Source: Lachnospiraceae bacterium (GTDB lineage Bacteria > Bacillota > Clostridia > Lachnospirales > Lachnospiraceae). Taken from it: a stretch of 64,000 nt of DNA. Positions 9,158 to 47,213 of this stretch are shown piece by piece. Positions within the stretch are counted from its first letter, which is position 1, and every line of letters starts with the position of its first letter. A program made the translations under genes and the position numbers. Under the pieces are notes generated by a model. The model was not told the DNA's origin. It worked only from the letters and a program-made list of their open reading frames with translations, and made no database searches. The stretch covers positions 62,001-126,000 of the forward strand of contig JAILLN010000023.1 in NCBI GenBank assembly GCA_024693135.1, read 5' to 3'.

Positions 9158-10018
9158 ATGATGGAGCAAAAAAGCGTGATCCAATCCATGGCCAAGAGGT
9201 ATCCCCAGCTTTATGTGGCGCCGTCCCCGGATTCGGAGGAAGCCTACAAGAGGGCAGTACAGGCCGGGGAGGAGCCGGAGGATAAAAGCCTTTCCCATTT
9301 TACCGGAAGCCAGGAAGACCGTCTTGAAACGGTGCATACCGGGGCAGGGGACGTGGAGGTTTTGACTCTTTTCTTAAGGGCAGACTTTGAGACCTTTGAG
9401 CAGATCATCCTTTACCGGGCAAAGCCGGCAGAGATCCTTCCCTCCGTGGGAGCCGAGACCATTATCGGGCTTCGGGACTGGGCCGATCTCCATAAGCATA
9501 TGGAGGATTTCCGGGAACTTGGGGAGGAGGAGTACTGGGAGGAATTAAAGCGGTATGCGAAGGAAAAGTCCGGAGAGAGGCCTACGCTGATCCTGCTTTC
9601 TTCGGGACCCTATAGTGCTGTTACGGCGAAGCAGGCGGGGATGGGAGAGGAGGAATGGCTCCTTACCTCCCTTAAGATCCGGAAATACCATGAGCTCTGC
9701 CATTTCATGTGCCGGAAGTCCTGTCCTGAGCTGGCGCACCCTCTCTGGGATGAGCTGGTGGCAGACATGTATGGGCTTTTGATGGCCGTAAACTGTTATG
9801 ATCCGGATCTGGCGGCACTTTTTCTCGGGGTGGATCAAGCAGGCTATCATGGAGGGAGGCTCATCCATTACCTGGGGGAGGAAGAAAAAAAGGCCTTGGA
9901 GGATACGGCACAGAGGACCTACAAGGCCATAAAGGAGCTGTCCGGCTTTGTGGAGGAATACAAGGGGGAGATCGGGCTTGACATGCTGATCGAGCTTACC
10001 ACTCATCCCATGCTTTAG
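9158..10018 (+). CDS. Putative zinc-dependent (HExxH) protein, unknown family
   Basis: 286 residues from the ATG at 9158, 6 nt after AAAGGAGG (an in-frame ATG at 9131 lies upstream of that site). No signal peptide, so probably cytoplasmic. The notable motif is HELCH at about 178-182 (KYHELCHFM), a match to the HExxH zinc-binding signature. It is followed about 20 residues later by WDELVADMYGLLM, which could provide a third ligand (E or D). The rest is not recognised. It sits between an AEC permease and a LysR regulator. A peptidase role is possible but unproven. Confidence 0.6.
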   Translation: MMEQKSVIQSMAKRYPQLYVAPSPDSEEAYKRAVQAGEEPEDKSLSHFTGSQEDRLETVHTGAGDVEVLTLFLRADFETFEQIILYRAKPAEILPSVGAETIIGLRDWADLHKHMEDFRELGEEEYWEELKRYAKEKSGERPTLILLSSGPYSAVTAKQAGMGEEEWLLTSLKIRKYHELCHFMCRKSCPELAHPLWDELVADMYGLLMAVNCYDPDLAALFLGVDQAGYHGGRLIHYLGEEEKKALEDTAQRTYKAIKELSGFVEEYKGEIGLDMLIELTTHPML

Positions 10019-10041
10019 GCGGACAAGGAAAGGAGGACATC

Positions 10042-10920
10042 ATGGAGCTGAGGCATATCCGGTATTTTATGGCGGTGGCGGAGGAAATGAATTTTACCAA
10101 GGCGGCGCAGAAGCTTGCCATCGCACAGCCGCCTTTATCCAGGCAGATCAAGGAGCTGGAGGAGGAACTGGGGGCGAGGCTTTTTGACCGGAATTCCCAT
10201 TCCATACATCTTACGGAGGAGGGCATCCTCTTTAAGCAGTATGCCACCCAGATCCTGGAGCTTGAAGGAAGGTCCAGGGATGAGATCTCGGAAATGGGAC
10301 AGTCCCTCCACGGCCGGATCTATGTGGGCTCCGTGGAGGGCTACGGCCCCCATCTTCTGGCGCAATGGATCCAGGATTTCCATCAGGAAAATCCCCATGT
10401 CCAGTTTGACCTTTGGAACGGGAGCACCGATGAGATCGTAAACCGGCTGGCCAGGGGGCTGTGCGATCTGGCCGTGGTCATGGAGCCCTTCAGCGATCCC
10501 TTCATCAATACCCGGAAGGTCCACTCCGAGCCTTGGGCCGCCGTGATCCCCAGGACCAATCCCCTTGCCGAAAAGAAGACCGGCTCCATCCATCCGGCGG
10601 AGCTGGAGGACGAGCCGCTGATCATTCCTTCCCGGGCATCCCGCAGTGATGAGATCCGGAGATGGATGCCGGATCCGGAGAAGCCGCTGAACGTGGTATG
10701 CCGGGTAGCGCAGCTGGTCAATGTCATGGAGCTTGCCCATGCCGGCGTGGGGATCGGCATCTTTCCCTTGGCCAAGGGAGTGATGTCGGAGGACGAGCAT
10801 GTGGCCATCAAGACCATAAAGCATCCTCTGGCCAGAGCCTCCTATCTTCTGGCCTGGATGAAGGACCGCCCCCTGTCCAAATCCGCCGGAGCATTTCTGG
10901 ACCGGATCCGGGGGCGCTGA
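10042..10920 (+). CDS. LysR family transcriptional regulator
   Basis: 292 residues, standard LTTR length. The N-terminal winged helix-turn-helix is clear (LRHIRYFMAVAEEMNFTKAA, then QPPLSRQIKELEEELGARLF). The rest is a periplasmic-binding-protein-like effector domain starting near residue 92 (GRIYVGSVEGYGPHL). The AGGAGG site is 5-6 nt before the ATG and 23 nt after the previous gene's stop. LysR proteins often control neighbours, so the AEC permease or the HExxH gene is a reasonable target. The effector is unknown. Confidence 0.92.
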   Translation: MELRHIRYFMAVAEEMNFTKAAQKLAIAQPPLSRQIKELEEELGARLFDRNSHSIHLTEEGILFKQYATQILELEGRSRDEISEMGQSLHGRIYVGSVEGYGPHLLAQWIQDFHQENPHVQFDLWNGSTDEIVNRLARGLCDLAVVMEPFSDPFINTRKVHSEPWAAVIPRTNPLAEKKTGSIHPAELEDEPLIIPSRASRSDEIRRWMPDPEKPLNVVCRVAQLVNVMELAHAGVGIGIFPLAKGVMSEDEHVAIKTIKHPLARASYLLAWMKDRPLSKSAGAFLDRIRGR

Positions 10921-38439: not shown

Positions 38440-40098
38440 ATGATTCTTTCAGATCATCAGGACGAGCTCCGCTTTTGGCGGGAAATTTCTAAGAAACAGG
38501 CAGGAATCCGGGAGTTGAAAAAGACTCTGGCTGAGATCCTGCCCAATTTTCATGTCTGCGGAGTGGAAGCCGAGCTTCTGGGGGACGTGGCCGGCACGGC
38601 GAAGGAAAAGGAGCTGCTCCTTTACCAGAAGGCAGAGGCCATGCCCCATGGAGAGCCCCTGAAATTCACCTATGAGCCGGATCCGGACCACAGCATCGTG
38701 ATCTACGTCTATGCGGACAGGATGGATTTTACGGAAACGGAGAAGGAATCCCTGGAAATGCTGGCCGCAGGCTGCCGGTTCGTGCTGGAGGAGTCTCTTT
38801 TTTGCACCGGGGCGGGCTCGGAATCCTTAAGCCAGGCGGTTACCGGCCTGCCCAATACGGACGGCTTCCTGGCCAGGGTGGCCGCCCTCAGGGAAGAAGG
38901 GGCGGATTTTTCGGAATACAGTGCGATCTGCTTCAACCTGAAGGGCTTCGGGGAAGTGAACCGGCGCTTCGGAAGGAAAAAGGGCAACGAGGTCATGAAG
39001 CTGTATGCCGGGATCCTTCAGGGGATCGTGCGGGGGGATGAGGCCCTGGGTCATTTGGGCTGGGATTATTTCACCGTGTTGATCCGGAAAAGCCGGCAGA
39101 AGCGCTTCCTCCATCACATCCGGAATATGGAGGTACGCTTTGATGCAGACGGCATAGAGGAGAAAGTACGTATTTCCGCTACCGTGGGGATCTGGGAGAT
39201 CGAGGACGGGCTGAAGGATCTGGAGGATGTGGTATCCAAGCCCTATACGGCTCTGAACCAGGCCAGGAATATCCTGCATGCAGGCGTCGCCTATGCCTCG
39301 GATGACATGATCCGGCTTATCCGCCAGCGGGAGTCGGTGATCAAGTATTATAAGGAAGCCCTTGAGAATGAGGAATTCCAGGTATATTACCAGCCAAAGG
39401 TGGATTCCAGGACAGGCCTTTTGGTCGGGGCAGAGGGGCTGGTACGGTGGTTCAGGGACGGAGAGATGATCTCTCCCGGGGTATTCATTCCTTCCCTGGA
39501 GGAGGATGGGAGGATCCTGGATCTGGATTATTATGTGCTCCGCCATGCCTGCCGGGATATCCGGGAGTGGGTGGAGAAGGGGTATGACCCGGTCACGGTA
39601 TCCGTAAATTTCTCCAGGAAAGACCTGAAGGATCCCAGGCTTGCCGAAAACATCAACCAGATCATTGAGGAATCCGGGATTGACAAGAGCCTGATCCAGG
39701 TAGAGCTTACGGAGACGGTAGATGTGGAGGAGCATGGTGAGCTTTCCGGCTTCATCGAAAAGCTGTATCGGATGAATATTATGACGGCGATCGATGACTT
39801 CGGCTCCGGTTATTCTTCCCTGGCTACCCTCCGGGAATTCAGGGTCCATACCTTAAAGATCGACCGGTCCTTTGTCAATGACGATGATTTTTCCTGGAAG
39901 GACGAGATCATCCTGCGGGATATCATCCATATGGCCGGGGAGCTTGGGATGGAGATCCTCTGCGAGGGGGTGGAGCGGGTAGACCAGCTGGCGCTCCTAA
40001 ACAGCGTGGGCTGCTATGTGATCCAGGGCTTTTATTATGACCGGCCGCTCCCCAGAAATGAGTTTGAGAAGCGGCTCATAGCCAAAAATTACAGCTGA
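38440..40098 (+). CDS. c-di-GMP phosphodiesterase, degenerate GGDEF plus EAL
   Basis: 552 residues, soluble. Residues 1 to about 125 may be a GAF-like sensory part. Residues about 130-285 form a GGDEF domain whose signature is lost (LGWDYF in place of GGDEF), so it cannot make c-di-GMP but might bind GTP. The EAL domain (about 300-550) keeps the catalytic set: E332-G-L-V-R, VSVNFSRKDL, ELTETVD, IDDFGSGYSSL, LKIDRSFV and EGVE. It should hydrolyse c-di-GMP. The ribosome binding site is weak. It opens a signalling cluster that includes CheV and a GGDEF cyclase. Confidence 0.88.
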   Translation: MILSDHQDELRFWREISKKQAGIRELKKTLAEILPNFHVCGVEAELLGDVAGTAKEKELLLYQKAEAMPHGEPLKFTYEPDPDHSIVIYVYADRMDFTETEKESLEMLAAGCRFVLEESLFCTGAGSESLSQAVTGLPNTDGFLARVAALREEGADFSEYSAICFNLKGFGEVNRRFGRKKGNEVMKLYAGILQGIVRGDEALGHLGWDYFTVLIRKSRQKRFLHHIRNMEVRFDADGIEEKVRISATVGIWEIEDGLKDLEDVVSKPYTALNQARNILHAGVAYASDDMIRLIRQRESVIKYYKEALENEEFQVYYQPKVDSRTGLLVGAEGLVRWFRDGEMISPGVFIPSLEEDGRILDLDYYVLRHACRDIREWVEKGYDPVTVSVNFSRKDLKDPRLAENINQIIEESGIDKSLIQVELTETVDVEEHGELSGFIEKLYRMNIMTAIDDFGSGYSSLATLREFRVHTLKIDRSFVNDDDFSWKDEIILRDIIHMAGELGMEILCEGVERVDQLALLNSVGCYVIQGFYYDRPLPRNEFEKRLIAKNYS

Positions 40099-40527: not shown

Positions 40528-40571
40528 AGGGAATGTGAGTTAATAAAATGGGAGATGACGGAGGACGGGCT

Positions 40572-41474
40572 ATGGAACCAGGATCGGCCAATAATCATGA
40601 AGAAAAAGAGCTCCAGCTGCTGGAATTCAAGCTGGGGGAATACCGCTACGGGATCAATGTAGCCAAGGTGAAGGAGATCATCACCTATCAGCCGACGACT
40701 CCGGTGCCGCTGTCCCATCCCGGGGTAGAGGGGATCTTTATGCCGAGGGATGAGATGCTTACCGCCATCGACTTGAAGGTATGCCTGGGGATCGGCCAGT
40801 CTGAGCCGACAGGCTCTTATATCCTGACCAATTTCAATAAGCTGCACATTGCTTTTCACGTGGATTCCATCGTGGGGATCCATGACGTGACCTGGGCAGA
40901 CATCATGAAGCCGGGAGCCGCCACGGGCACCGGGGAGGACAGCGTCACCATCGGCGTCATCAAGTATGAGGGAAGGCTGATCAACCTGCTGGATTTTGAA
41001 AAGATCGTGGGCGTCATCTCTCCCAGCACCACATTGGACATGGATCAGCTGGAAAGCCTGGGTCCCAGGAGCCGGAATGACATCCCCATCATCCTGGCCG
41101 AGGACTCCCAGCTTTTGAACCGGCTTATCGTGGAGTCGCTAGAGTCTGCCGGATATGACAATATACGTCATTTTGAAAACGGGAAGGATGCCTATGATTT
41201 CATTCTCAAGTGCGCGGATGAGGGCATGCTGGCCCATAGGGTGGGCTGCATCATCACCGACATCGAGATGCCGGTCATGGACGGCCATACCTTCACGAAG
41301 CTGGTAAAGTCAAATGGTAAGACCAGTCATATCCCGCTGATCATCTTCTCCTCCCTGGTGAATGATGAAATGAGGAAAAAAGGGGAAAAGCTTGGGGCAG
41401 ACAGGCAGGTGTCGAAGCCGGAGATCGGCAGCCTGGTATCGATCATCGATGAGCTGGTGGGATACGAAGAATAG
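40572..41474 (+). CDS. cheV: CheV, CheW-receiver coupling protein
   Basis: 300 residues. An N-terminal CheW domain (LLEFKLGEYRYGINVAKVKE, VPLSHPGVEGIFMPRDEML) is joined to a C-terminal receiver domain from about 170 (IPIILAEDSQLLNRLIVE). The phosphoacceptor is D230 in CIITDIEMPVMDG and the switch lysine is in QVSKPEIG. CheV couples receptors to CheA and tunes adaptation by phosphorylation. I chose ATG 40572, 7 nt after GGAGG, instead of ATG 40548. It is convergent with the cyclase gene, and the two stops almost touch (41474/41476). Confidence 0.92.
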   Translation: MEPGSANNHEEKELQLLEFKLGEYRYGINVAKVKEIITYQPTTPVPLSHPGVEGIFMPRDEMLTAIDLKVCLGIGQSEPTGSYILTNFNKLHIAFHVDSIVGIHDVTWADIMKPGAATGTGEDSVTIGVIKYEGRLINLLDFEKIVGVISPSTTLDMDQLESLGPRSRNDIPIILAEDSQLLNRLIVESLESAGYDNIRHFENGKDAYDFILKCADEGMLAHRVGCIITDIEMPVMDGHTFTKLVKSNGKTSHIPLIIFSSLVNDEMRKKGEKLGADRQVSKPEIGSLVSIIDELVGYEE

Positions 41475-41475
41475 A

Positions 41476-42813
41476 TCAGGTCAGTTTTTCAATCTCATAG
41501 GAAATGTCATAATAGCGGCTGGCGTTGACGTCAGCCCAGTTTTTTATGATCCGGTCCGTGACGGTCTCGATATTGAGGGGGGAGAGCCTGAGGAGGATCA
41601 CCAGGAACTGGTTCTTGCCGCTCTGGGCGATCACGTCGCTCTGCCTTAAGGAAGCACCCAATGCAAACTGGAACTGCTCCATGGCATCCTTCAGGGGCAG
41701 GGAGGGGCTGTGGTCATGCCCTTCCTCATTAAGGAAGCCGGATTCGTCCAGGGAGAAAAGCAGCAGCCAGGCTTCATTCTGATAGTTGGCATGGATCCGC
41801 ACCAGGAAACGGTAAACCAGCTGGAACTGCTCGAAGGAAAGGCAGAAGGCTCCTCTGGGCTGGTTCCTTTCTCCCAGGATCTGCATCAGGTTGGTGAGGA
41901 CGCTGGAGTAGGATTCCTTCTGCTCGGCCTCTTTTTCGGAATCCCGGCAGACGGCATATCCGTGCTTGCCGTTCTGCTTCACGCTGCGGAGAGCCTTGTC
42001 GGCCTTCTGGAAAAGATCCTGGAAGGCGGTCCCTTCCTCCGGCGTAAATACGCAGCCAATGGAGGCGCCCAGCGGGATGGAGATATCCTCCCCCAGGAGC
42101 TCTGCTGCGGAGGAGAGAAGGTTTTCATTGATATAGGAGGCCTTTTCCGCAATGACCGTTTCATCGGTGATGTTCTGGCAGAAAGCAATGAATTCGTCCC
42201 CGCCCACACGGCCGGACAGGTCGTTCTGGCGGATGGCGGAACAGAGGATCTCCGCGAAGCGGATCAGGATCTCGTCGCCCTTGTCATGCCCATAGATATC
42301 ATTTACCGGCTTGAAGCAGTCCAGGTCGATCATCATGAGGGCGCCGGGGGTTCTCCCCAGCATGGTCTGAAGCTCAGCCTGGAAGGAGGCTTTGTTTAAG
42401 AGGCCCGTCATGGGGTCGGTCACGGCCGCATGAGTGAGCCCCTCGATCGTCTCCCTGGTCTTGATGATGTTGCTCACCCGTTTCAGCAGCACGTCGGCGC
42501 GGAAGGGCTTGCGGATGAATTCTTCAGCACCGGACTCAAAGGCCTTTGCCTCCACATGGTCATCATTGTCTGCGGTCATGAACATGACCGGGATGGTCTC
42601 ATGGAATTCCTTCTGCAGGCTTTCTAAAAGCTCATAGCCGTTCATCCCCGGCATCCTCAGGTCGGAAACGATCATGTCCGGACGCTCCTGCCTGTACAGC
42701 GTAAGAGCCTCCTGCCCGGAAAGGGCGCAGATGGTCTGATACTGGGAAGACAGGATATGCTCCGTCATCATCAGGGATATCTTTTCATCATCTACGATCA
42801 GAATCTTAACCAT
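41476..42813 (-). CDS. Response regulator diguanylate cyclase (REC-GGDEF)
   Basis: 445 residues. Receiver 1 to about 118 with D51 (IVSDLRMPGMNG) and K in FIRKPF. GGDEF domain at about 125-290 with an intact GGDEF at 204-208 and an allosteric I-site RQND at 195-198, exactly five residues before it. It should therefore make c-di-GMP with product inhibition. The last about 130 residues resemble a second, degenerate GGDEF-like fold (SDVIAQSGKNQFLVILL). It is transcribed divergently from the Hpt and permease-kinase genes. No strong ribosome binding site precedes ATG 42813. Confidence 0.92.
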   Translation of the reverse strand: MVKILIVDDEKISLMMTEHILSSQYQTICALSGQEALTLYRQERPDMIVSDLRMPGMNGYELLESLQKEFHETIPVMFMTADNDDHVEAKAFESGAEEFIRKPFRADVLLKRVSNIIKTRETIEGLTHAAVTDPMTGLLNKASFQAELQTMLGRTPGALMMIDLDCFKPVNDIYGHDKGDEILIRFAEILCSAIRQNDLSGRVGGDEFIAFCQNITDETVIAEKASYINENLLSSAAELLGEDISIPLGASIGCVFTPEEGTAFQDLFQKADKALRSVKQNGKHGYAVCRDSEKEAEQKESYSSVLTNLMQILGERNQPRGAFCLSFEQFQLVYRFLVRIHANYQNEAWLLLFSLDESGFLNEEGHDHSPSLPLKDAMEQFQFALGASLRQSDVIAQSGKNQFLVILLRLSPLNIETVTDRIIKNWADVNASRYYDISYEIEKLT

Positions 42814-42841
42814 ATCGTAAAGATAGCATAAAAATCACGGT

Positions 42842-42871
42842 TTTACAAATCCCCGGACCCTGGTATATACT
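42842..42871 (+). promoter_or_regulatory. Promoter of the hpt-kinase operon
   Basis: TTTACA (42842-42847), 18-nt spacer, TATACT (42866-42871), in the divergent gap between the cyclase and Hpt genes. Confidence 0.6.
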
Positions 42872-42937
42872 ATCCTTGTTCCTTAAAAGCTGGCGCATCC
42901 GGGGGTGCTTAAAGGACTCCGGAGGGCTTTGGGGAGG

Positions 42938-43312
42938 ATGGGAATACTCACGATTGAAAACCTTAGAGAATACGGGGCTGACGTAGACGAGGCTTTGGCA
43001 AGGTGCATGGGTAATGAGGCCTTTTATCTCAAAATGGTAGCCATGGGGATAGCGGACGAGCGGTTCGGATCCCTGAAGAAGGCGCTGGAGGAAAAGGATC
43101 TGGACGAGGCCTTTGAACAGGCACATGCCCTGAAGGGCGTGGTGGGAAATCTGGCCCTGACCCCCATCGCGGGTCCCATTGGAGAAATGACCGCGCTTTT
43201 GAGAAAGCGGGAGGATGCAGATTATCTGCCGATTTATGAGAGAATGAAGGAGACCAGGGATGCCCTGGCAAGGCTTGGGGAGGACGGAGAAAGGACCGAT
43301 GGGAGAGAATAA
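42938..43312 (+). CDS. Stand-alone Hpt phosphotransfer protein
   Basis: 124 residues from ATG 42938 (GGGGAGG abuts it; a GTG-type start at 42905 is the alternative). The HPt four-helix pattern is clear, with the phosphorylated H63 in QAHALKGVVGNLAL. Such proteins shuttle phosphate from a kinase's receiver to a final response regulator. The 3' end overlaps the start of the permease-kinase gene by 14 nt, so the two are translated together and are very likely partners. The REC-GGDEF protein encoded divergently is the obvious acceptor candidate. Confidence 0.85.
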   Translation: MGILTIENLREYGADVDEALARCMGNEAFYLKMVAMGIADERFGSLKKALEEKDLDEAFEQAHALKGVVGNLALTPIAGPIGEMTALLRKREDADYLPIYERMKETRDALARLGEDGERTDGRE

Positions 43313-45860
43313 TACAGCAGAAAAGCAGAAGGGAAGGGGCATCACCGCCCTCATGGCCTGGGCTCTTTCCTTTGGATGCATGATCGGGTGGGGAGCCTTC
43401 GTCATGCCCGGCACCACATTCCTTCCGGGGGCCGGTCCGGTGGGCTCCGGGATTGCGATCCTGGGGGGGATGGCATTTGCCATGCTGATCGCGGCCAATT
43501 ACTATTTCATGATGAACCGGCAGTCCGAGGCAGGGGGAGCCATCGCCTATGCGGATGAGGCTCTTGGCGCAGACCAGTCTTTTCTTTGTGCCTGGTATCT
43601 GCTTCTGGCCTATCTTTCCGTGGTGCCGCTCAATACATCGGCCCTGTCCTTCATCGCCAGGAGGCTGATCTATGACAATGCCATCTTTTCCCTGATGCTT
43701 GCCATCGTCATCTTAGGGCTCTGCGTGGTGTTCTGTCTCGTGAAGCCCAGGCTTGCCGGGATACTGCAGAGCATCCTCGTGCTCCTGCTCTTTGTGGGGG
43801 TGCTTATTTTCTTCGGTATGGCCATCTTTGAGCCGAAGGTCATGGAGGGCCATATGGAGCCCGGCTTTTATCCGGAGGGGAGCCGCCTGACCCAGACCCT
43901 GATGGTGACGGCCATCATGCCCTGGGCTTATATCGGTTTTGACACCCTGTCCCATATGGCCGACCTGTTTGAATTTGACATGAAAAAGACCTTCCGCATC
44001 ATGGCCAGGTCCATCGGAGCGGCGGCCGTGACCTATCTCATCCTGACCGTGATCCCGGCGGCGGTGATGTCCGGGGAATATGGCAGCTGGGTCACATATC
44101 TTGAGGAAATGGGAGATTTTACCGGGATCCGGACCATTCCGGCTTTTTATTCTGCGGAGATCTTATTTGGAAGGACCGGGGTCGCGATCCTGATCTTTGC
44201 GGCGGTATCGGCCATCCTGTCCTGCCTCATCGGCTTCTGCATGGCTTCCGGGAGGCTGCTGTCTGCCATGGCCGAGAAGGATTTCCTTCCGGCGGTATTT
44301 AAGAAACGCAGGGCGAGCGCCATCTTCATCATGAGCCTTACGGTCATCCTGCTGGTGTCCGGGGAGGCCGTCTCGGAGCAGCTGGTGGATCTTTGCGCCA
44401 TCGGGGCTTCGGTAGGATTTTTCTATACCTCTGTGGCCGTATTCAAAAAGGCCAGGGAAGAGAAAAACAAAAGATACATGGGGACGGGAGCCCTGGGGAT
44501 GCTTTTTTCTGCCGTTTTCGGCCTGTATGAGTTCTATTTCATGCTGCTGAATGCTTATGTAGGGGGATTGAACTCCTTCCTCCTGTTGGTGTTCGTATTC
44601 CTTTATACCGTCTCAGCCCTGATCCTGATCTACCATTCTTCCGTGAGGCGGGAGGACAGGCTCAACCAGAAGAGGCTCGAGGCGGAAGAAAAGATCCGGG
44701 AAGAGGGACGCTTTATCTACAGCATGGCACATGACCTGCGCACGCCGATGAATGCCGTCATGGGCTTCTCGGATCTGGCTCTTTCCAGTGGAGATGACCC
44801 GGAGAAGATAAGGGATCATCTGGAAAAGATCAAGGATTCGGCAGGGCAGCTCCTGTCGCTCATCAATGATATCCTGGAAATGGGCCGTATGGACAGCGGG
44901 GATATCCAGCTCAATGAGGAGGCTCATGACCTGCGGGATGTGGTGGACGAGGCCTGTGCCATGGCAGAGAGCCGGGCAGAGGAAAAGAAGCTGCGTTTTA
45001 CCGTGGATACCAGCCGCGTGGAGTCGGGGATCGTCTTCCTTGACCGGGAAAAGATCCTCCGGATCCTGCTGGACCTCATAAGCAATGCCATCAAATTTAC
45101 CCCGGAGGGAGGCAGGGTGGAGGTAACCCTGGCACAGGAGGGGAAGAGCCAAAAGCCGGATTACGGAAGGTATGTGCTGCATGTGAAGGATACCGGAAAA
45201 GGCATGACGAAGGACTTTGCAGAGGGCATGTTTGATGTCTTTGAAATGGAGAGGGCATCCGGCACAGGCCTCATGCATGTCAGCGGCCTGGGGGTGGCGG
45301 TGGCCAGAAACCTGGTAGATATGATGGAAGGCACCATCACCGTGGATACCGCTCCCGGGGAAGGGAGCGATTTCGAGGTCGTGCTGGAGCTGAAGATCCA
45401 GGAGGACGCCGGATCGGGGGCGGCGCTTCACCGCCACGATCCTGCGGCCGCATCCTTAAGCTTTAAGGGCAGGCGGGTGCTGATCGCGGACGACAATCTC
45501 GTCAGCCGGGAGATCGCAAGAGAGATCCTTGTGGAGCATGGGTTTAAGGTAGAGGAAGCAGAAAACGGCAGGCAGGCCCTGGAAAAGGTATCGGGCTCCG
45601 AGCCGGGATATTTCGACCTGGTGCTGATGGATGTGAGAATGCCGGTCATGGGCGGATATGAAGCTACGGCCGCGATCCGGCTATTGGAAGATCCTGTCCT
45701 TTCCAATGTCCCCGTGGTGGCCTTGACGGCCAATGCCTTCGAGGAGGATGTGAGGGCGGCAAAGAGCGCAGGGATGGACGGGCATATTGCAAAGCCGGTC
45801 GACATCCCGCTGATGATGGAGACACTGAATAAGGTTTTTGCCGAAGGGAAATCGAAATAA
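43299..45860 (+). CDS. APC permease-histidine kinase-receiver fusion (transceptor)
   Basis: 853 residues from ATG 43299. Residues about 10-440 are an amino-acid/polyamine/organocation permease: twelve helices, helix 1 with FGCMIGWGAFVMPGT, then IMPWAYIGFDTLSHMADL in helix 6. After a short coiled coil come HisKA with H478 (FIYSMAHDLRTPMNAVMGF), an ATPase domain (LISNAIKFTPEGGRVEV, VKDTGKGM, VSGLGVAVARNLV), and a C-terminal receiver with D778 (LVLMDVRMPVMGG). The logic resembles CbrA, where a transporter-like domain drives a kinase, but the permease family differs. The substrate is unknown. It is likely part of a relay with the overlapping Hpt gene. Confidence 0.88.
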   Translation: MGENNTAEKQKGRGITALMAWALSFGCMIGWGAFVMPGTTFLPGAGPVGSGIAILGGMAFAMLIAANYYFMMNRQSEAGGAIAYADEALGADQSFLCAWYLLLAYLSVVPLNTSALSFIARRLIYDNAIFSLMLAIVILGLCVVFCLVKPRLAGILQSILVLLLFVGVLIFFGMAIFEPKVMEGHMEPGFYPEGSRLTQTLMVTAIMPWAYIGFDTLSHMADLFEFDMKKTFRIMARSIGAAAVTYLILTVIPAAVMSGEYGSWVTYLEEMGDFTGIRTIPAFYSAEILFGRTGVAILIFAAVSAILSCLIGFCMASGRLLSAMAEKDFLPAVFKKRRASAIFIMSLTVILLVSGEAVSEQLVDLCAIGASVGFFYTSVAVFKKAREEKNKRYMGTGALGMLFSAVFGLYEFYFMLLNAYVGGLNSFLLLVFVFLYTVSALILIYHSSVRREDRLNQKRLEAEEKIREEGRFIYSMAHDLRTPMNAVMGFSDLALSSGDDPEKIRDHLEKIKDSAGQLLSLINDILEMGRMDSGDIQLNEEAHDLRDVVDEACAMAESRAEEKKLRFTVDTSRVESGIVFLDREKILRILLDLISNAIKFTPEGGRVEVTLAQEGKSQKPDYGRYVLHVKDTGKGMTKDFAEGMFDVFEMERASGTGLMHVSGLGVAVARNLVDMMEGTITVDTAPGEGSDFEVVLELKIQEDAGSGAALHRHDPAAASLSFKGRRVLIADDNLVSREIAREILVEHGFKVEEAENGRQALEKVSGSEPGYFDLVLMDVRMPVMGGYEATAAIRLLEDPVLSNVPVVALTANAFEEDVRAAKSAGMDGHIAKPVDIPLMMETLNKVFAEGKSK

Positions 45861-47213
45861 ATGAGCACGAAAGAAAACAAAATGGGCGTCATGCGCGTCA
45901 AGAAGCTGATCATCTCCATGTCCCTGCCGATGATGATCTCCATGCTGGTGCAGGCTCTGTACAACGTGGTAGACAGCATATTCGTGGCAAGGATCAGTGA
46001 AAATGCCCTGACGGCAGTGACGCTGGCCTTTCCCATGCAGAATTTCATGTTTTCCATCGGCGCAGGCACCGGCGTGGGCGTCAATGCCATGCTTTCCAGG
46101 GCCTTGGGAGAGAAGAAGTTCGATGAATCCGACCTGGCGGCGAACAACGGCCTCTTCCTGACCTTCATCAGCGCCTTTGTGTTCATGTTCATCGGCCTGT
46201 TCCTTTCCGGCCCCTTCATCGCGACGCAGACGGGCAATCCGGAGATCATCGCCTATGGAAAGCAGTATCTGGGGATCATCTGCGTTTTCTCCTATGGCCT
46301 TTATTTCCAGATGATGTTTGAGCGGCTGCTGCAGTCCACGGGGCTTACCCTATACAGCATGGTCTCCCAGATCGTGGGTGCCGTGACGAACATCATCCTG
46401 GATCCCATCATGATCTTCGGGCTTTTCGGCCTGCCTGCCCTGGGGGTAAGGGGCGCTGCCCTTGCCACGGTCATCGGGCAGAGCGTGGCGGCCACATTGG
46501 GGCTTATGATGAATCTCAGGGTAAATAAGGAGATCCGCTTTTCCCTGAAGAAGGTGCTCTCCCTGAATGGGGAGATGGTGCGGAAGATCTATGCGGTGGG
46601 GGTTCCCTCCATCCTCATGATGTCCATCGGCTCCATCATGACCTATTGCATGAATAAGATCCTGATCGCCTTCTCCAACACGGCAACGGCTGTATTTGGG
46701 GTATATTTCAAGCTGCAGAGCTTTTTCTTCCTGCCGGTCTTCGGCCTGAATAACGGCCTGATCCCGGTGCTTGCGTATAATTATGGGGCCAGGAGAAAGG
46801 ACAGGGTGATCGAGGCGCTGAAATTCTCCGTTACCCTGGCCCTTGTGATCATGGCGGCCGGCACTCTGGTGATGAACCTGTTTCCGAAGGAGCTTTTGGG
46901 ACTGTTTAATGCTTCCCAGGACATGATGGGGATCGGCGTGCCGGCGCTCCGGATCATCTCGCTTCATTTTCCTGTGGCGGCAGCGGCCATCATCATAGGA
47001 TCCACCTTCCAGGCTTTTGCCCAGAGCATCTATTCCCTGATCACCTCCATAGCCAGACAGCTTGTGGCGCTGATCCCGGCGGCCTGGCTTCTGTCGCTTA
47101 CCGGAAATGTGAATAACGTATGGTGGGCCTTCATGATCTCAGAGGTCGTCTCCCTTACCATGACGCTAGTATTCTTCCGGAAGCTTTACCGTGAAAAGAT
47201 TGAAGACCTCTAA
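45861..47213 (+). CDS. MATE family efflux transporter (second)
   Basis: 450 residues, twelve helices. Conserved marks are NVVDSIFVARISENALTAV, GVGVNAMLSRALGE, GVRGAALATVIGQS and NNGLIPVLAYNYGARRKDR. The ATG directly follows the kinase gene's TAA, so it is in the same operon. The pairing with the transceptor kinase suggests a common metabolite or cue, but the substrate is not known. It is only distantly like the MATE gene at 31460. Confidence 0.93.
   Translation: MSTKENKMGVMRVKKLIISMSLPMMISMLVQALYNVVDSIFVARISENALTAVTLAFPMQNFMFSIGAGTGVGVNAMLSRALGEKKFDESDLAANNGLFLTFISAFVFMFIGLFLSGPFIATQTGNPEIIAYGKQYLGIICVFSYGLYFQMMFERLLQSTGLTLYSMVSQIVGAVTNIILDPIMIFGLFGLPALGVRGAALATVIGQSVAATLGLMMNLRVNKEIRFSLKKVLSLNGEMVRKIYAVGVPSILMMSIGSIMTYCMNKILIAFSNTATAVFGVYFKLQSFFFLPVFGLNNGLIPVLAYNYGARRKDRVIEALKFSVTLALVIMAAGTLVMNLFPKELLGLFNASQDMMGIGVPALRIISLHFPVAAAAIIIGSTFQAFAQSIYSLITSIARQLVALIPAAWLLSLTGNVNNVWWAFMISEVVSLTMTLVFFRKLYREKIEDL

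Follow-up and report, generated by a model that had tools for sequence, protein, structure and literature searches.

Single-clade fusions of APC-type permeases to signalling outputs in Clostridia, including a candidate permease-kinase phosphorelay to c-di-GMP

An APC-type permease, a histidine kinase and a receiver were encoded in one reading frame of a Lachnospiraceae bacterium, beginning within a separate hpt gene, and the permease part belonged to a single clade of fused permeases found mostly in Clostridia. From the anatomy of the proteins and their gene context, we propose that this fusion may begin a solute-responsive relay (H478 to D778, to H63 of the Hpt protein, to D51 of a REC-GGDEF protein) that would set c-di-GMP, and we put the probability of this reading slightly above even, at roughly 0.55. 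As part of the same reading, the permease would be a sensor module drawn from amino-acid or amine transporters. The features concerned (Table 1) lie in the window, which is the whole 64,000-nucleotide stretch of DNA that was analysed.

Table 1. Features of the permease-kinase locus, in window coordinates.
Feature	Position	Strand	Residues or length	Basis and remarks
GGDEF/EAL protein	38440..40098	+		Pfam, motifs; GWDYF at the GGDEF position, EGLVR kept
CheW-REC (CheV-like) protein	40548-41474			near the relay genes
REC-GGDEF protein	41476..42813	-	445 aa	Pfam, motifs; D51, RQND preceding intact GGDEF; proposed terminal response regulator
Divergent intergenic region	42814..42937	.	124 nt	between the REC-GGDEF gene and hpt
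hpt gene	42938..43312	+	124 aa	Pfam Hpt, E 4.7e-9; phospho-acceptor H63 in HALKG
APC permease-HisKA-HATPase-REC fusion	43299..45860	+	853 aa	ORF and Pfam; begins within hpt
12-TM APC (CAT/ApcT-like) permease part	43335..44636	+	~13-446	Pfam, profile, AlphaFold2, Foldseek, conservation
Predicted single helix, TM12 to linker to H478 helix	44568..44786	+	424-496	AlphaFold2, hydropathy; without TM13-TM14 hairpin
HisKA, H478	44706..44900	+	470-534	Pfam
HATPase_c	45042..45395	+	582-699	Pfam
Receiver domain (Response_reg), D778	45477..45827	+	727-843	Pfam
MATE transporter	45861..47213	+		ORF and Pfam; first base directly after the fusion stop

The first-pass annotation had described the order permease, HisKA, HATPase_c and Response_reg together with a separate Hpt, and Pfam found each of these, with AA_permease_2 at residues 19-421 of the fusion (E 4e-20). 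The key residues were all recovered with the numbering claimed, namely H478 (in HDLRTP), D778 and Hpt H63, which supply the HisKA histidine, receiver aspartate and Hpt histidine of a hybrid kinase phosphorelay. Other motif residues of the fusion were kept as well (N596, D631/G633/G635, D732, T810 and K832), H63, K66 and G67 were invariant across all 26 aligned Hpts, and the REC-GGDEF acceptor D51 was assigned by its position in the receiver. Both reading frames were open over the coordinates given for them, which bore out the 14-nt overlap of hpt and the fusion gene. The fusion start at 43299 is an assumption; translated from the in-frame ATG at 43260, the protein would have 866 aa. The REC-GGDEF gene and the fusion gene lie on opposite strands, and the region between the former and hpt held one promoter-like match (42842-42871, + strand), a frequency expected by chance in the scanned stretch. 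The MATE gene is probably co-transcribed with the fusion, and MATE-like genes were also seen near fusions at loci L114 and L132. By its motifs, the GGDEF/EAL protein is a candidate for a nearby c-di-GMP phosphodiesterase. Rfam at the gathering threshold gave no matches in the window, and megablast of window positions 42700-46000 against plasmids gave none.

The architecture had been regarded as unusual in the first-pass annotation, a view that was wrong at family level; the search for fusions and the count of lineages that it had suggested returned one clade of fused permeases, recurring across many Clostridia. Of 48 genomes sampled from the window's genus, 32 had permease matches (E<=1e-3), and at E<=1e-25 matches occurred in 34/397 genomes of the family, 11/391 of the class and 10/398 of the phylum, these being overlapping genome samples in which some matches are standalone permeases. 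The named carriers among the matches listed include Lachnospiraceae, Oscillospiraceae, Christensenellaceae, Selenomonadaceae and Erysipelotrichaceae, with one Coriobacteriaceae and one Verrucomicrobia bin for which mis-binning is possible, and the permease clade was found in many gut and rumen bacteria. The outputs attached to the fused permeases were HK-REC, HK-REC-REC, HK without a detected receiver, GGDEF, GGDEF-REC and HD-GYP. The GGDEF motif was intact in all six that were looked at of 14 GGDEF fusions, and HHExxDGxGYP was present in both HD-GYP fusions (L160:631-2853 and L162:523-2898, both on the - strand). As one permease clade is carried on HK-REC, HK-REC-REC, GGDEF and HD-GYP proteins, it behaves as an exchangeable input. 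More tentatively, and at somewhat less than an even chance, these proteins may form a bacterial receptor class, in which an APC-fold amino-acid or amine permease was recruited once in Clostridia as an exchangeable input for HK phosphorelays, diguanylate cyclases and HD-GYP phosphodiesterases, nutrient amines would set c-di-GMP, and the window member would be a stripped-down form whose TM12 drives the kinase.

The single-clade origin of the fused permeases was seen in a careful tree of 33 rows, where 25 of them, the window's included, formed one clade with 100/100 support, and the nearest permeases outside it were the standalone L150 and L141. In a quick tree of 106 rows, the 14 GGDEF fusions and the two HD-GYP fusions fell together inside the HK fusions. 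The window permease was placed near the base of the clade beside L138, on the longest branch among the fused permeases, and its exact place is therefore unsure. An independent fusion event in the window was considered, as 17 diagnostic columns of its permease were standalone-like in eight cases, fusion-like in four and neither in five. This was rejected despite the eight standalone-like columns, because the permease lies inside the fused clade, its placement outside a group made up of the remaining fusions and the standalone L141, L150 and L158 was rejected (p-AU 1e-5), and its kinase grouped with fused kinases at modest support (84, 91), including that of L138 (84). The fused kinases as a whole did not form one clade in the kinase tree (8 label changes).

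The twelve or so helices that had been counted from the sequence agreed with the AlphaFold2 model of the window fusion (mean pLDDT 81.5), whose helix list contained 12 membrane helices, and Foldseek against AdiC gave a TMt of 0.78. The permease part thus combined a Pfam APC match with a 12-TM LeuT fold in the predicted model. A profile built from 27 fused permeases, including the window's, matched PDB 6f34, 5oqt, 9uat and 9sqh, the closest solved structures being human CAT1, CAT4 and bacterial GkApcT; we take 6f34 and 5oqt to be GkApcT. By profile these are the solved transporters nearest to the window permease; unlike the window fusion, they are without signalling domains. The fusion also had TM1 G30-W31-G32 and the unwound TM6 segment P208-W209-A-Y-I-G213-F214-D215, which we take to be the APC substrate-site motifs, and both TM1 glycines were invariant in 63 of 63 HK fusions and 14 of 14 GGDEF fusions. 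The fusion would be a transceptor if it senses its substrate. GkApcT K191, presumably the proton-coupling lysine of TM5, corresponded to L164 in the window permease, and this position was hydrophobic in every HK fusion (63/63), GGDEF fusion (14/14) and standalone relative (19/19). A missing TM5 lysine was rejected as a mark of lost transport, since standalone relatives are without it too and it cannot separate receptors from transporters.

The APC fold and intact TM1 and TM6 motifs would suit a permease that still transports, with a kinase largely independent of transport and a fusion that serves localisation or co-expression. A precedent comes from Pseudomonas CbrA, the analogue of the fusion that is closest among those studied, which is called a transceptor in the available parts of three reports (PMC13022988, PMC7096432, PMC7918813), and whose transporter domain, in P. 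putida, was not essential for kinase output according to one of them (PMC7096432); this cautions against assuming that the transporter in such a fusion governs the kinase. We consider continued transport of this kind unlikely as the main explanation, as the attachment of one permease clade to three unrelated output types fits an input role; the absence of the TM5 lysine would point the same way, but is not decisive given the standalone relatives. CbrA/CrbS-type SLC5-STAC kinases, as described in the same parts of those reports, resemble the window fusion in joining an N-terminal LeuT-fold transporter to a (hybrid) histidine kinase (PMC13022988, PMC7096432, PMC7918813), and the C-terminal histidine kinase of that type is present in the fusion. 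The fusion differs from them in its APC/CAT-type AA_permease_2, its adjacent Hpt gene and its c-di-GMP enzyme neighbours, and its permease clade, unlike CbrA/CrbS, also has GGDEF and HD-GYP versions. Pfam on the window fusion reported AA_permease_2 and AA_permease and no SSF, and no STAC match was found in this protein or in the canonical HK fusions L039, L041, L032 and L109.

A hydropathy comparison of 78 fusions set the window copy apart at the junction between permease and output. The other 77 had two extra hydrophobic segments and a loop at this point, with a gap of more than 100 aa, whereas the window fusion alone was without the two-helix hairpin, its permease and kinase being separated by 21 aa with no extra hydrophobic segments. 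In the model of L041, extra helices at residues 477-504 and 509-588 follow TM12, and the second extends past H571; in the window model, the helix spanning the junction extends past H478. As pLDDT was 62-70 across this block, the coupling is put forward as a suggestion, namely that TM12 may run straight into the kinase helix of the window fusion. A similar arrangement appears in the available part of a report on the ammonium sensor kinase Ks-Amt5, in which transport has been lost and the transporter fold gates the kinase without a linker domain (PMC5764959). Like Ks-Amt5, the window fusion has a transporter fold coupled to a kinase and no PAS, HAMP or STAC, and unlike the other 77 fusions it has no linker domain between the last TM helix and the DHp; Ks-Amt5 differs in having an Amt fold and in being a trimer, and that part of the report mentions no receiver or Hpt (PMC5764959).

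The window permease was also the most divergent, with 47 of the 70 columns conserved in other HK fusions kept, compared with a median of 98%, and its ligand site may therefore have drifted. Taken with the longest branch and the missing hairpin, this low conservation could mean that the sensor is decaying or has been re-purposed and is no longer under ligand control. The same genome carries another APC-kinase copy, in two pieces (L128:8325-9356 and 9368-10855, + strand), the latter piece giving no receiver match. Decay of this kind is nevertheless very improbable for a copy whose 853 codons are open and in which the kinase, receiver, Hpt and TM1/TM6 motifs are kept.

Partner genes were compared in the best 80 of 527 loci confirmed in a scan of genome contigs. 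In 28 of these a single ORF encoded both permease and kinase, and the other 52 were permease-free kinases. An Hpt gene lay within 3 kb on the same strand at 25/28 fusions and at 4/52 of the permease-free hybrid kinases, and a GGDEF/EAL gene, within the same limits, beside 22/28 and 5/52, respectively. A check by motif alone, within 500 nt, was positive at 24/28 fusions and 0/52 controls. The total flank was at least 3 kb for 49 of the 52 controls, and in these comparisons the counted loci share descent and the controls are of a different kinase lineage; owing to the shared descent, the Fisher p-values for the motif check overstate independence. At family level, among loci of shared descent, the pairing with Hpt exceeds chance. 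The order HK-REC, REC-(GGDEF-)EAL, Hpt, fusion was seen at 15 of the 28 loci; at L053 the HK-REC gene is downstream instead, and at L036, L041, L060 and L070 a large GGDEF protein is encoded next after the fusion, which in L036 and L041, the two scanned, was SBP_bac_3-PAS-GGDEF.

The claim that the Hpt is dedicated to the fusion stood in part. A separate Hpt gene accompanied 25 of the 28 fusions in named genomes among the best 80 of 527 loci, but within the window's genus the association was loose. At the 15 HK-type fusion loci inspected in the genus (L109-L123; several contigs are short and L120 is split by a stop), a separate Hpt gene was nearby only at L119 and L123, on the other strand, and Hpt domains were found within neighbouring larger kinases at L111, L113 and L120. 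Of the 37 genomes searched in the genus, 30 had an Hpt of the window type (E<=1e-6); ten of the 30 gave no permease match, although only three of those ten were at least 90% complete. Apart from its locus in the window, this Hpt had 32 places in the genus, and we surveyed the context at 16 of them. A REC-GGDEF, REC-(GGDEF-)EAL or EAL neighbour was present at 12 of the 16, and at four a relative of the window's REC-GGDEF protein, with the C-terminal part in common, lay beside the Hpt. Hybrid kinases were directly beside it at four of the 16; L199, L200 and L202 had hybrid kinases and no c-di-GMP enzyme match, and L205 had no recognised neighbour. As c-di-GMP regulators accompany the window-type Hpt both with and without a permease kinase, this Hpt points to the REC-GGDEF protein as the output in the window and weakens the word dedicated. 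The REC-GGDEF protein, which did not figure in the first-pass annotation, is thus the likely terminal output.

These observations also bear on whether the Hpt is a general hub shared by several hybrid kinases of the genus, with its position next to the fusion due to local rearrangement and the output of the fusion lying elsewhere, for example in the CheW-REC protein. The wide occurrence of the window-type Hpt, the ten genomes with no permease match and its position directly beside other hybrid kinases would fit such a hub. The window's genome gave 19 matches to the Hpt domain, which would fit a hub too and make cross-talk possible; the fusion query had 61 matches there, and the many further hybrid kinases and receivers of this genome are possible partners as well. 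We judge a general hub improbable, as Hpt genes adjoin most fusions in the named genomes and the only window-type Hpt in the window's genome is the one beside the fusion.

A multi-step relay, as had been claimed, is well supported by gene context. In the relay that we propose, occupancy of the LeuT-fold site of the permease, or a conformational change in it, would shift TM12, which is predicted to be continuous with the kinase dimerisation helix and would in this way set autophosphorylation at H478. Phosphate would then move to D778 of the attached receiver and on to H63 of the Hpt, whose gene overlaps that of the fusion. The last acceptor would be D51 of the REC-GGDEF protein, encoded in the divergent direction, and c-di-GMP synthesis would change as a result.

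Ssy1 and Gap1 of yeast are kin of the APC family. In the available part of one report they are, like the proposed sensor, amino-acid permeases that serve as receptors, and unlike it they are eukaryotic and have no fused kinase, Gap1 acting on the PKA pathway (PMC5890159). Transporter-fused kinases are already known. Few of them (CbrA type, Ks-Amt5) are described in the available parts of the reports cited above, and their kinases may be driven by transport or by binding. The titles and abstract openings of the open-access literature, among the matches listed, contained no APC-kinase, APC-GGDEF or APC-HD-GYP fusion, which leaves room for database annotation without discussion, and the main text of a 2022 census of c-di-GMP stimuli and receptors that describes itself as comprehensive, in its available part, did not use the word permease (PMC8846402). 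Among those open-access matches, the APC-type fusion, its GGDEF and HD-GYP siblings and its Hpt and c-di-GMP context did not appear. With its standalone sisters, its three kinds of output and a single linker-less member, the clade allows a direct test of how a transporter evolves into a receptor, and in Clostridia of the gut and rumen the fused permeases are candidate inputs to c-di-GMP signalling.

Assignment of a ligand from the gene neighbourhoods of standalone sisters (L210, L211, L212) was rejected as these were too mixed. The sister at L210 adjoins choline-kinase and BCCT genes and that at L212 CoA-transferase genes. At L211 (2008-8964), the standalone sister adjoins a (2S)-3-sulfopropanediol dehydratase and its activase, which suggests a sulfonate or an amine as its substrate. 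A more distant APC permease was found joined to a cytidylate-kinase-like domain (Cytidylate_kin2) at L134:6154-8280 (-) and L137:2792-4630 (+).
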